A stretch of 64,000 nucleotides of DNA from contig NZ_JAQSWB010000007.1 in NCBI RefSeq assembly GCF_029266855.1, positions 186,001-250,000 on the forward strand. Direction: 5' to 3'. The notes beneath the pieces were generated by a model that worked only from the letters and a program-made list of their open reading frames with translations, did not search any database and was not told where the DNA came from. The stretch is from Fluviicola sp. Lineage in GTDB: Bacteria > Bacteroidota > Bacteroidia > Flavobacteriales_D > Crocinitomicaceae. Positions 17,691-22,869 of the stretch are shown piece after piece (positions within the stretch are counted from its first letter, which is position 1; every line of letters starts with the position of its first letter). A program made the position numbers and the translations under genes.

Positions 17691-18584
17691 CTATTTATTT
17701 TGTGCCTGTTTGATGTGATCACGCAGTTCTTTCGAAGTCATCGTACTTCCATCCGGACTCCATCCGGGCGGTTTTGCAATGTATAACCATTTATTTTTAA
17801 ACCCTTTTGCTTTTCGAACATCTTTGTAAATTTCCATCCATTCGTGAAAAATTACATTCACCGGATTTTGACTGATCTGCTTTTCATACAAGCCATATTG
17901 AATGGGAAGTCCATCGATCTCAGCCTGAAAAGTGCCAAATAATTTGTCCCAGATAATGAGGATCATTCCCATATTTTTATCCAGGTATTCTACATTAGAT
18001 GCATGGTGAACCCGGTGATGCGACGGAGTAACCAAAACATACTCCAAAACACCCAATCTTCTTACAGCTTTGGTATGAACCAGGATTCCGTAAGTTTGGG
18101 TGACTGAGTACATAATGAAAATATCAAATGGCTCGAAACCCAAAAACACCAGGGGAATGAACCAGATAAAACGGTAAACCGGCTGGAACACCGATGAACG
18201 GAAACCCGTTGTGAAATTGAATCGCTCGGAAGAATGGTGAGTTACGTGGATCGCCCAAAAGAATCGTACCATATGATCGATCCGGTGAATCCAGTAGAAG
18301 ATAAAATCCTCGGCAAAAAACAGCAACAACCAATAATACCAGGAATTCGGTTCCCAGCTTATAAGTCTGTAATGAAAGAAAGAAAGGAGAACAAACAGGG
18401 TAATTCCACGCATTAGCACATCAATTCCCATATTTGCAATCATCAAATACAGATTTTGAATCGTATCACCAACCGTGTACAATTTTCTATTATGCCAATT
18501 ACTCAGAATAATTTCACCCAGGATTAACAGCACATAGATAGGAGTGCTGATAAAAATGATGAGTTTTTCTACGTAATCAACCAT
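17691..18584 (-). CDS. Fatty acid hydroxylase / sterol desaturase family membrane protein
   Basis: A 297-residue integral membrane di-iron enzyme. The His clusters are visible: H100/H104 in HRIDH, H113/H116/H117 in HVTHH, and H189/H190/H193/H194 in HHRVHH. Membrane helices lie near residues 10-28, 55-75, 82-100 and 140-160. The family hydroxylates or desaturates lipid chains, and alkylglycerol monooxygenase-like proteins also belong here; the lipid substrate is not predictable. It lies 13 bp after pyrF and 1 bp before mtnB. The link to those genes is probably positional. Confidence 0.85.
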   Translation of the reverse strand: MVDYVEKLIIFISTPIYVLLILGEIILSNWHNRKLYTVGDTIQNLYLMIANMGIDVLMRGITLFVLLSFFHYRLISWEPNSWYYWLLLFFAEDFIFYWIHRIDHMVRFFWAIHVTHHSSERFNFTTGFRSSVFQPVYRFIWFIPLVFLGFEPFDIFIMYSVTQTYGILVHTKAVRRLGVLEYVLVTPSHHRVHHASNVEYLDKNMGMILIIWDKLFGTFQAEIDGLPIQYGLYEKQISQNPVNVIFHEWMEIYKDVRKAKGFKNKWLYIAKPPGWSPDGSTMTSKELRDHIKQAQNK

Positions 18585-19471: not shown

Positions 19472-20251
19472 CTACTGTCCAACGATAATTGTTCTCGAAT
19501 GAACTGTTCTTGCGGAGAAATACCCCAAACAACCCCCGTTCAGATTTGAAATTGGATTGGCAGGAGTAGCACTGCTGGAGGAATTGACCCCTAACTGGTT
19601 GAAATAAGTATAAATCGGTTTATCAATGCAAAACAAGTCTACACGAACGGTATCTCCCAGCAACAAATCGGAAATAAATAAGGGTTCAACCGTAAGATTT
19701 CCATCCGTAAACTGATCGTTTTGAAGATAAACACTCTTATCGCGGGTGCCATTTATATAAACGTGAAACTGGTAATAGTTTGACACTCCCTGCTGGTCAA
19801 AATGAGCCGGAACCACTGAAATCAACGTATCCGCACCAAAAGGATAAAATTCAGCATACAAAGTATCCAGCTGCTGATAGGCAGGCATTGCGCTGCTTCC
19901 GGAATAGGTCGTTCCTTCCACAACCGCAGTCAGCGTATAGTTTCTTCCTTCAATACCCGGATAGCCTGTCAATTCATACCACCCATTCCCTACAGAAGTG
20001 AAGGTAGCAGTATTTCCAAGGTTATCAACTACCGTTACAACAGCATTGTCAACAGCCGGAGGAGCCGTACTTTCATCAAAGTTTTGGGTTTTCGTAATAC
20101 GAACACGCTGAAGTGTATCGCCTCTGAGGATCGTTCCTTCAATGACCACTTTTTGTTCCGTATCGTTCAAATCAATATCAATCACTTTCTCACAACTTGA
20201 GAAACCAAGAAGGAAAACAAAAGAAACCAGGACTATAATTATTAATTTCAT
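19472..20251 (-). CDS. DUF4249 lipoprotein
   Basis: A 259-residue lipoprotein. The signal peptide ends LLGFSSC with Cys near residue 20, followed by EKVIDIDLN, which is the DUF4249 opening. The rest is beta-rich, with an Ig-like segment (VTVVDNLGNTATF to LTAVVEGTTYSG). DUF4249 lipoproteins are encoded next to TonB receptors with a carboxypeptidase-like N-terminal domain and are presumed outer-membrane partners in uptake. That is the arrangement here, with the receptor upstream. The ligand is unknown. A tandem repeat fills the 150-bp gap between the two genes. Confidence 0.82.
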   Translation of the reverse strand: MKLIIIVLVSFVFLLGFSSCEKVIDIDLNDTEQKVVIEGTILRGDTLQRVRITKTQNFDESTAPPAVDNAVVTVVDNLGNTATFTSVGNGWYELTGYPGIEGRNYTLTAVVEGTTYSGSSAMPAYQQLDTLYAEFYPFGADTLISVVPAHFDQQGVSNYYQFHVYINGTRDKSVYLQNDQFTDGNLTVEPLFISDLLLGDTVRVDLFCIDKPIYTYFNQLGVNSSSSATPANPISNLNGGCLGYFSARTVHSRTIIVGQ

Positions 20252-20295
20252 CTTTATTACATTTTAATTTGTTCAATCCACTTCCGTGGATTCAT

Positions 20296-20398
20296 ATCGA
20301 AATCAGTGCTTTTATGACCGCGCTAACACTTGTCTTTATCGAAAGCAGTGCTTTTTACGACCGCGCTAACACTTGTCTTTATCGAAAGCAGTGCTTTC
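20296..20398. repeat. Tandem 42-43-bp repeat between TonB receptor and DUF4249 genes
   Basis: Unit 1 is 20296-20337, unit 2 is 20338-20380, and a third is cut at 20381-20398. The first two units share the block ACCGCGCTAACACTTGTCTTT, and units 2 and 3 share ATCGAAAGCAGTGCTTT. The 15-bp GAAAGCA-G-TGCTTTC is a palindrome. A diverged copy lies at 25391-25441. Confidence 0.8.
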
Positions 20399-20400
20399 TC

Positions 20401-22722
20401 TTATTTGAATTTAAAATTGTAAGTAATTGCCGGAACTATCTTGAATAAAGTTGTTTGGACTGCTTCGGTTTTGGACGGATCATCTTTATTTTCCCTGAAC
20501 GTAATGGAATAAGCATTCTCCCGCGCATATGCATTGTAGATAGAGAAATTCCAGCTGCTTTCAAATTTCTTTGTGTTTTTGCGAAGCCAGGTTACACCGA
20601 TATCCAGACGATGATAGTTCGGCATTCGATAGCCATTTCGCTGGGTATAGATAAAATATGTCTGACCATCAATCTGGTATTTACCGGAAGGGAAAGTCAC
20701 CGCATTTCCAGTGTAAAAAACAAACAATGCCGAAACAGACCATTTCGGTGTAATATCATAAATTCCGACTACGGACAGATCGTGTGTTCTATCCTGTTTC
20801 GCACGGTACCAGTTTCCGTCATTGATTCCATCGATCCTGCGTTCTGTGCGGGAAAGCGTATAACCGACCCAGCCTGTAAACTTCCCGGTTTTTTTCTTCA
20901 GCATGATCTCCAAGCCATAAGCACGACCTATTCCTGAAAGTAATTCCCCTTCCAGACGTTCGTTTGCCTGCTCATTTGCACCATTCTTATAATCCAACTG
21001 GTTTTGCATCCACTTATAGTAAATTTCCGTGCTCAACTCCAATTTATTGTCCAGGAAATTCTTAAACCAGCCCAAAGCCACCTGGTCTGAAATTTCAGGT
21101 TTGATATTCAAACTGGAAGAAAGCCACACATCTGTCGGTGAACCGGAAGTTGAATTCGATACCTGATGGATGTTTTGTGTATTCCGGGCATAGGCAGCTT
21201 TGATCGATTGCCCTTTTAAATATTGCCAGCTGAAGGAAAGTCTAGGCTCGACGAAGAAATAAGATTTCAGTAATTTATTCTTTGCATAGGTCTCTGTTGT
21301 GGCAACTGTCCCATCCGGATTATAGGTATACATTTCATCACCGCTTGCAAGCGCCATTAAATTGGACCCGCGCAAACCGTAGCTCATCGTAAAGTTTTCG
21401 GTAATTGTATAGTCGTTGCTGATGTAAACCGCATTCTCAAACGAGTTGGTTGGTTTCAATCTTTTTGCATTGATCCCCGAAGCTTCATTTGCATCAATTT
21501 GTCCGGGGGTAATTCCGTGGTTAATCACATTCAACCCGATCTTAACTTTGTTCCTGTTATTCGGGAACCACTGAAACTCTTGTTTCAAATTGAAGTCCTG
21601 GATTTGTGAGGTGATATCAAACTTCACGTCGCCGCCCGAAATTGAAATTTTATAATCGTATTTACTGTAAATAAAGGAGGTGTTGGAAAACCATTTCTCG
21701 TCGATAATGTGATTCCATCGAAGGGTTCCTGTTGTATTTCCCCAATTGATTCCGAAAACATCACCCAAACCTAATTTGTCCCTTCCAAAGTACCCGGACA
21801 GGAACAAACGGTCTTTTTTACCAATGCGGTAATTGACCTTTGCATTCAAATCATAGAAGAACAATTTATTGTCTTTAAACCGGTCGGATAATTTCAGGAA
21901 AAGATCTGCATAGGTTCTTCTTCCTGAAACCAGGAATGAAGCTTTATCTTTTGCAATAGGACCTTCGATAATTAATTTGGAAGATATCAACCCGATTCCT
22001 CCTCCAACATTATAGCGCTTCTGATTTCCATCGTTCATTTTGATGTCCAGAACCGAAGCAAGCCTGCCTCCGTAATTTGAAGGCTGATTACCCTTATAAA
22101 GCATGGCATCTTTAATCGCATCCGAATTAAAGGTAGAGAAAAACCCAAGCAGGTGACTCGCATTGTAGACAGGAGCTTCGTCCAATAAGATCAAATTTTG
22201 ATCTGCACCACCACCCCGCACATAAAATCCGGAACTTCCTTCACCGGCATTTTTCACACCCGGAAGCAATTGCATTGTTTTGATCAAATCCTTCTCACCA
22301 AAAATCACCGGGATCTTTGAAATTTCTTTCGGGTCGATCTTCTCAACTCCCATTAAAGGATCCCTTACATTTCCATCTGGTCTGTCTGTGGAAATAACAA
22401 CTTCTTCCAATTCTTTTTCGTCCTGTTGCGTTTTCAACTGAAAATCCAGAGATTGCGAAACGGACAGATCCAATTCTTTCTCCATCGGGGGATATCCGGT
22501 TGCAGAAATCTGGATCGTATATTTTCCGGCCGGAAGGGTTAAAGAGTAGAAACCGTATTCATTGGTAACAGCACCTAATTTTTGGTCTTTTACGCGAACA
22601 ACGGCACCAATGATCTCTTCTCCTTTCGATTCATCTTTAACAGTTCCGCTAAGGGTTGCATTCCCCTGGCCGAAAGAGATTGCAGTGATTAGAACAAATA
22701 AAATGGGTAATCCTAATTTCAT
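20401..22722 (-). CDS. TonB-dependent outer-membrane receptor with carboxypeptidase-like N-terminal domain
   Basis: A 773-residue receptor for energised uptake across the outer membrane. The signal peptide is MKLGLPILFVLITAISFGQ, the carboxypeptidase regulatory-like domain covers about 22-105 (ATLSGTVKDESKGEEIIGA), and the plug about 125-245 contains LLPGVKNAGEGSSGFYVRGG and YGGRLASVLD. A 22-strand barrel fills the rest and ends with a membrane-insertion strand FKIVPAITYNFKFK. ATG 22722 is chosen because the longer frame adds 24 non-signal residues. It is paired with a DUF4249 lipoprotein just downstream; the substrate is not predictable. Confidence 0.92.
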   Translation of the reverse strand: MKLGLPILFVLITAISFGQGNATLSGTVKDESKGEEIIGAVVRVKDQKLGAVTNEYGFYSLTLPAGKYTIQISATGYPPMEKELDLSVSQSLDFQLKTQQDEKELEEVVISTDRPDGNVRDPLMGVEKIDPKEISKIPVIFGEKDLIKTMQLLPGVKNAGEGSSGFYVRGGGADQNLILLDEAPVYNASHLLGFFSTFNSDAIKDAMLYKGNQPSNYGGRLASVLDIKMNDGNQKRYNVGGGIGLISSKLIIEGPIAKDKASFLVSGRRTYADLFLKLSDRFKDNKLFFYDLNAKVNYRIGKKDRLFLSGYFGRDKLGLGDVFGINWGNTTGTLRWNHIIDEKWFSNTSFIYSKYDYKISISGGDVKFDITSQIQDFNLKQEFQWFPNNRNKVKIGLNVINHGITPGQIDANEASGINAKRLKPTNSFENAVYISNDYTITENFTMSYGLRGSNLMALASGDEMYTYNPDGTVATTETYAKNKLLKSYFFVEPRLSFSWQYLKGQSIKAAYARNTQNIHQVSNSTSGSPTDVWLSSSLNIKPEISDQVALGWFKNFLDNKLELSTEIYYKWMQNQLDYKNGANEQANERLEGELLSGIGRAYGLEIMLKKKTGKFTGWVGYTLSRTERRIDGINDGNWYRAKQDRTHDLSVVGIYDITPKWSVSALFVFYTGNAVTFPSGKYQIDGQTYFIYTQRNGYRMPNYHRLDIGVTWLRKNTKKFESSWNFSIYNAYARENAYSITFRENKDDPSKTEAVQTTLFKIVPAITYNFKFK

Positions 22723-22869
22723 ATTGCTGAGTTGTGGTGTAAAATTCGCATTTATCTGCTCAATCAGAGAGAAAAAATGGCGAATGGTTGTCATTTTTCG
22801 GTTAATGGTATATTATCAAAACAAAAAAGTGATTTTCGCTTTCGCTCAATCACCTTTAATTATCGTTTA

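Follow-up and report, generated by a model that had tools for sequence, protein, structure and literature searches.

Several outer-membrane systems combine a TonB-dependent receptor with a surface lipoprotein that works as a lid. In SusC-SusD and RagA-RagB the receptor is joined by such a partner, RagB being described in an abstract as a 4-TPR lid. BtuB-BtuG, the vitamin B12 system, places a lipoprotein lid on a normal-sized TonB receptor, where the BtuB loops EL2 and EL11 grip the BtuG linker, which may serve as a hinge (accessible text of PMC10404256). In XusA-XusB, which handles xenosiderophores, the receptor carries a carboxypeptidase-like N-terminal domain and the surface lipoprotein lid XusB is a DUF4374 propeller (accessible text of PMC13142918). 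Closest to the locus studied here is BT2172/BT2173 of Bacteroides thetaiotaomicron, from which DUF4249 proteins were put forward as partners of TonB-dependent transporters. The operon of the two genes is conserved, the subfamily almost always adjoins DUF4249 across dozens of genera, and disruption of BT2172 or BT2173 has similar consequences; the accessible text of PMC11003636 names no substrate for them. Since this pairing has been published, the DUF4249/TonB receptor pair is a kind of system already in print, and no ligand of such a pair was found in the literature searched, preprints excluded. BamG/BamH, two BAM subunits of F. johnsoniae, were also considered and set aside: judged by locus tags alone, Fjoh_1412 and Fjoh_0823 lie far apart and hence are not a neighbour pair (accessible text of PMC12611786).

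The window, a stretch of 64,000 nucleotides from contig 7 of a Fluviicola sp. genome (4.3 Mb, 14 contigs), carries a pair of the same two families as BT2172/BT2173, a likeness drawn by family rather than by direct sequence comparison. Both genes lie on the minus strand in the order receptor, 149-nt gap, lipoprotein, with the following features:

20401-22722, minus strand: TonB-dependent receptor, 773 aa from the ATG at 22722-22720, with signal peptide, carboxypeptidase-regulatory-like domain, plug and barrel
19472-20251, minus strand: DUF4249 lipoprotein, 259 aa, with lipobox Cys20 and two predicted beta-sandwich domains
20168-20194, minus strand: putative docking strap adjoining the lipid anchor, lipoprotein codons 20-28 (CEKVIDIDL)
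20437-20526, minus strand: putative strap dock, receptor residues 757-786 (797-aa numbering), the final, presumed extracellular hairpin ahead of the C-terminal strand
20629-20655, minus strand: possible second contact patch, receptor residues 714-722 (797-aa numbering) in the preceding loop, presumed extracellular
20295-20397, no strand: 43-bp unit in 2.4 tandem copies, from a tandem repeat finder

Open reading frames and Pfam matches bore out the initial annotation, which had placed a TonB receptor and a DUF4249 lipoprotein at 19472-22722. The ATG listed is the best start of the receptor and opens a signal-peptide-like sequence; an upstream ATG at 22794 gives the 797-aa frame in which all receptor residues of the coupling results are numbered. 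The 43-bp repeat lies within the gap that separates the two genes, and a 25-base piece of it occurs at this site only in its own genome (allowing up to 3 mismatches). Gaps of 123 and 148 nt were found in two close relatives. In one collection, the receptor's closest named relative comes from the Flavobacteriales MAG UBA5869 (94% identity), and contig 1 of the same genome holds a second, diverged receptor/DUF4249 pair.

The lipoprotein belongs to DUF4249, with 70.2 bits to PF14054 for a cut-off of 28.5. The receptor matched CarbopepD_reg_2 (74.4 bits) and Plug (35.4 bits), and although it did not reach the barrel profile PF00593, the Plug match together with a barrel-type model of a 95%-identical relative places it among TonB-dependent receptors. 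In a fold comparison, this joint model (described below) aligned to classical TonB receptors including PqqU, FecA and BtuB, with target-normalised TM of 0.56-0.76 among the 50 matches listed. Searched by sequence against solved structures, the receptor had a single relative, 9gbc, covering roughly its first 230 residues, and the lipoprotein had no convincing match (best E 0.023). Modelled alone as the mature protein from an 82-row alignment, the lipoprotein reached a mean pLDDT of 94.5 and is predicted to be nearly all beta, with one helix and strands readable as two sandwich domains. Its Foldseek matches among solved structures were mainly cytokine-receptor-like Ig/FN3 tandems at TM 0.20-0.31 (50 matches listed), scores so low that we claim no structural homologue. 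These matches, and the grouping of the strands into two sandwich-sized sets, set the predicted fold apart from the seven-bladed propeller of BtuG and from the propeller of XusB. The lipobox cysteine was aligned in 218 of 218 DUF4249 proteins, while 96 of the 218 carry at most one acidic residue at positions +2 to +6, so that a clear acidic surface-export signal is not apparent.

The pair is widespread and tightly linked. Among the 295 genomes of the class that were sampled, 268 have the receptor at E 1e-150 or better; DUF4249 was found in 56 of 59 genomes, own genome included. Among 80 named loci, the receptor directly precedes DUF4249 in 76; two of the others end within about 30 nt of the receptor end (L096, L112), one ends inside the receptor (L135), and in L134 no DUF4249 was found in the space after the receptor. 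A DUF4249 match lies at most 700 nt downstream in 94 of 105 receptor rows of relatives, taken by hand among the matches listed, with many rows of partial receptor coverage left out. Six of the 11 rows without a close match do have a more diverged DUF4249 by our own profile or Pfam (L050, L168, L171, L172, L174, L175), and in L055 the receptor frame is broken with DUF4249 further on. No DUF4249 was found in the remaining four. Two of them, L176 and L177, are more distant receptors; L169 (2967-7358) and L170 (2088-6471), two genomes of one family, have in its place a gene that by eye resembles an ABC exporter. The intergenic gap has a median of 3 nt over 136 pairs, some fetched twice, and falls between -4 and +10 nt in 84 of them; translation of the two genes is thus probably coupled. 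Gaps above 100 nt occur in 10 of the 136, the window's pair being counted twice. A presence this close to universal points to a small nutrient in general demand as ligand, rather than to a special glycan.

Upstream of the pair in the window lie a gene for a release factor and a purM-like gene; downstream are pyrF, a member of the fatty-acid hydroxylase family and a gene for an mtnB-like aldolase. No degradative enzyme or sensor was found among these neighbour genes, and the earlier remark that none is nearby therefore stands for the window copy; it does not hold for the family, since sensors flank a minority of homologous copies. A histidine kinase (PF06580)/LytTR (PF04397) module immediately adjoins the pair, either upstream or downstream, in 6 of the 76 cases of the named set (L066, L072, L076, L102, L121, L142) and in 4 of the 78 cases of the class set (L223, L224, L235 and L237, the last two in one genome). 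Together these are 10 of 154 pairs, where about 0.7 would be expected, and 4 against 0.36 in the class set alone, the expectation being drawn from 720 LytTR matches in 99 genomes (about 343 Mb) under the assumptions of 1.1 kb per gene and independence, with kinase and LytTR profiles built from the named set. Pfam confirmed both proteins for L066 and L142 and the kinase alone for L072. Among 58 further pairs with short flanks, 8 also have a kinase match in those flanks (L051 repeats L076, with the same receptor end), and the module recurs in L168 and in L171, the latter being the place of L053. Finally, the receptor of L086 carries an STN domain and has FecR and ECF sigma genes upstream.

Such flanking regulators, with their excess over expectation and the STN/FecR/sigma arrangement of L086, would suit a pair that is mainly a surface sensor, in which ligand binding by the lid is read by the linked regulator and transport is secondary. 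We consider this unlikely, as 144 of the 154 pairs and the window pair have no such module directly alongside, the three kinases scanned in Pfam show no domain besides His_kinase, and a neighbouring sensor regulating an uptake gene is ordinary.

Substrate clues were sought by clustering 1148 neighbours of the 154 pairs. A polysaccharide deacetylase-like cluster (named by eye) lies directly beside 6 pairs, an esterase-like cluster directly upstream of 5 (PF00756 checked in L211 only), a FecR-like one directly beside 4 (Pfam checked in L086 only) and a fatty-acid-hydroxylase-like one directly beside 3. Some of these clusters look like shared synteny and none fixes the ligand. The PF00756 esterase gene of L211 (3400-4221), directly upstream of the receptor, may hint at an ester-bearing ligand or reflect synteny. 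A fatty-acid-hydroxylase-like gene directly follows DUF4249 in two Pedobacter loci (L079, 9074-9964; L086, 9136-10026) and lies two genes away in the window (17691-18584).

The initial annotation had named a predicted complex as a check on the pair, and a lack of predicted receptor-lipoprotein contact as the result that would speak against it. That outcome did not occur. We folded L034, whose receptor is 95% identical to the window's, so that the model is of this relative rather than of the window's own pair; its two in-frame genes were joined into a single chain of 1063 residues by reading the stops between them as glycine. The alignment of 80 rows comprised L034, 37 further in-frame pairs and 42 receptor rows, lipoprotein-only rows being excluded as nearly all of them misaligned onto the receptor. 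The model of this cognate pair, the only pairing folded, reached a mean pLDDT of 84.0 and a pTM of 0.81 over the 1063 residues, with low confidence for the 69 joining residues, signal peptide included. By our own estimate, an unplaced lipoprotein would hold pTM to about 0.75 even with a perfect receptor, and the value obtained thus supports a predicted contact. Also, the joint model predicts a strand at CEKVI that is missing when the lipoprotein is modelled alone, where the first ten residues average a pLDDT of 63. The fold was judged by pTM, pLDDT and predicted strands, from which neither the place of the lipoprotein nor its side of the barrel is readable.

Couplings between the two proteins likewise favour contact. 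They were computed from 218 pairs (225 before removal of exact duplicates), with an effective number of 175. In a six-class mean-field analysis, the highest inter-protein values were Q780-K22 (18.9) and E777-V23 (16.7), followed by F392-F181 (15.4), E759-K22 (14.5) and D365-A66 (13.6), the best values of six full shuffles being 10.6-13.4. A 20-letter analysis of five receptor blocks against the lipoprotein ranked V779-V23 (13.0), Q780-K22 (12.9), E777-V23 (12.1), Y722-I26 (10.7) and E759-K22 (9.4) as strongest; these five exceeded all of 11 within-clade shuffles, whose best values were 5.8-8.1. F392-F181 and D365-A66, high in the first analysis, were absent from the top of the second, and the second lipoprotein domain showed no coupling to the receptor well above shuffles.

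All five strongest couplings of the 20-letter analysis are carried by K22, V23 and I26, just past the lipidated cysteine, and their receptor partners fall in the last two presumed extracellular loops. Receptor couplings 757-786, 759-785 and 767-777 define the last hairpin. Q780-K22 and V779-V23, with T781-E21 (5.5), are compatible with one antiparallel register; T781-E21 and 767-23 (6.2) both match it and sit inside the shuffle range. In the preceding loop, I715-T55 (8.0) and F714-F58 (7.6) were borderline only, the best shuffle reaching 8.1. Charges swap at positions 759/22, with E-K in 93 pairs against K-E in 15, K-D in 12 and R-D in 6, and like charges occur too (K-K 13, R-K 5). Shuffling within 30 clusters retained 3.1-5.4 at 780/22, and part of that signal hence lies between clades. 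Within the limits of sequence covariation, these couplings support receptor-lipoprotein contact near the anchor strap. Both termini of TonB-receptor-type barrels are periplasmic; the tip of the last hairpin is therefore taken as extracellular and the lipoprotein placed at the surface.

Partner preference was then scored at five site pairs, with the genome in question left out, in 13 genomes holding two or three pairs each, a hand-made list that is not exhaustive. Of 17 comparisons within a genome, 13 gave the true partners a higher score than the swapped ones, 4 were ties and none went the other way. The sites were chosen on the same full data and orthologues of one second pair were included several times, so this pairing preference supports the contact without proving it. 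The three lines of fold, couplings and partner preference are not fully independent, as the first two share alignments. At the pairing residues, the window pair reads EREVQ/EKV and the contig 1 paralogue ADSKQ/TKE; a swap test is thus at hand within one genome.

We conclude that the window pair is very probably a lidded TonB-dependent uptake system. Directly observed are the conserved, close gene unit, the lipobox cysteine, the plug with a barrel-type model and the covariation between the two proteins. The lipoprotein would reach the cell surface and be lipid-anchored beside the barrel. Residues past its lipidated cysteine would add as a beta strand to the last extracellular hairpin of the receptor, with a second contact at the loop preceding that hairpin. 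The strap may then act as a hinge, in a manner comparable to the BtuG linker past the lipid anchor held by EL2/EL11 (accessible text of PMC10404256). A small ligand would be caught as the two domains of the body shut the mouth of the barrel, and would then pass into the barrel for TonB-driven import; strap charges may help to hold paralogous lids to their own receptors. Contrary points are the existence of receptors without DUF4249 (L134, L169, L170, L176, L177) and the missing clear acidic surface-export signal, which other known lids carry. The whole combination, in which a near-core system of the class takes up a common small nutrient, strand addition at the last extracellular hairpin provides the hinge, a charge pairing code works against swaps of paralogous lids and several lineages have kinase/LytTR wiring, is a tentative proposal, doubtful as a package.

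That the strongest couplings are confined to the anchor strap and the receptor's last two loops is also compatible with a structural clamp; DUF4249 would then serve the assembly or stability of the receptor barrel instead of handling substrate as a lid. The two well-predicted body domains exceed what a clamp needs, and we hold this role to be distinctly unlikely; the similar effects of BT2172 and BT2173 disruption fit a lid and a clamp alike and do not discriminate (accessible text of PMC11003636). That the pair is SusC/SusD proper, its SusD having diverged, is most improbable: SusC-like N-terminal domains and 60.9 bits to the SusC/RagA model TIGR04056 speak for it, but the match covers residues 47-228 only and lies far under the cut-off of 368 bits, the receptor has about 770 aa, and the nearly all-beta lipoprotein matches DUF4249 only in Pfam and nothing in NCBIfam, whereas SusD-type lids are helical. 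The SusC/SusD-like arrangement with DUF4249 in place of SusD, as proposed at the outset, is hence favoured as a way of working and not as family membership.

New here are the probable docking strap, the residues involved in pairing and the association with kinase/LytTR modules, none of which was found in the literature searched (preprints and many journals lay outside it). They concern a TonB receptor of about nine in ten sampled genomes of the class that is still without a ligand in the literature found; with docking predicted at the level of single residues, the idea of a lid can be put to the test, and the sensors beside the pair in relatives open a way towards the ligand.

Two DUF4249 or copy-like genes occur in tandem after one receptor in G023 (contig 42, 219212-220732), G021 (contig 308, 30670-32223), L076 (8331-9965) and L171 (2434-4027). 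In G023 and G021, stop-free stretches of about 550 aa may hold both DUF4249 copies.
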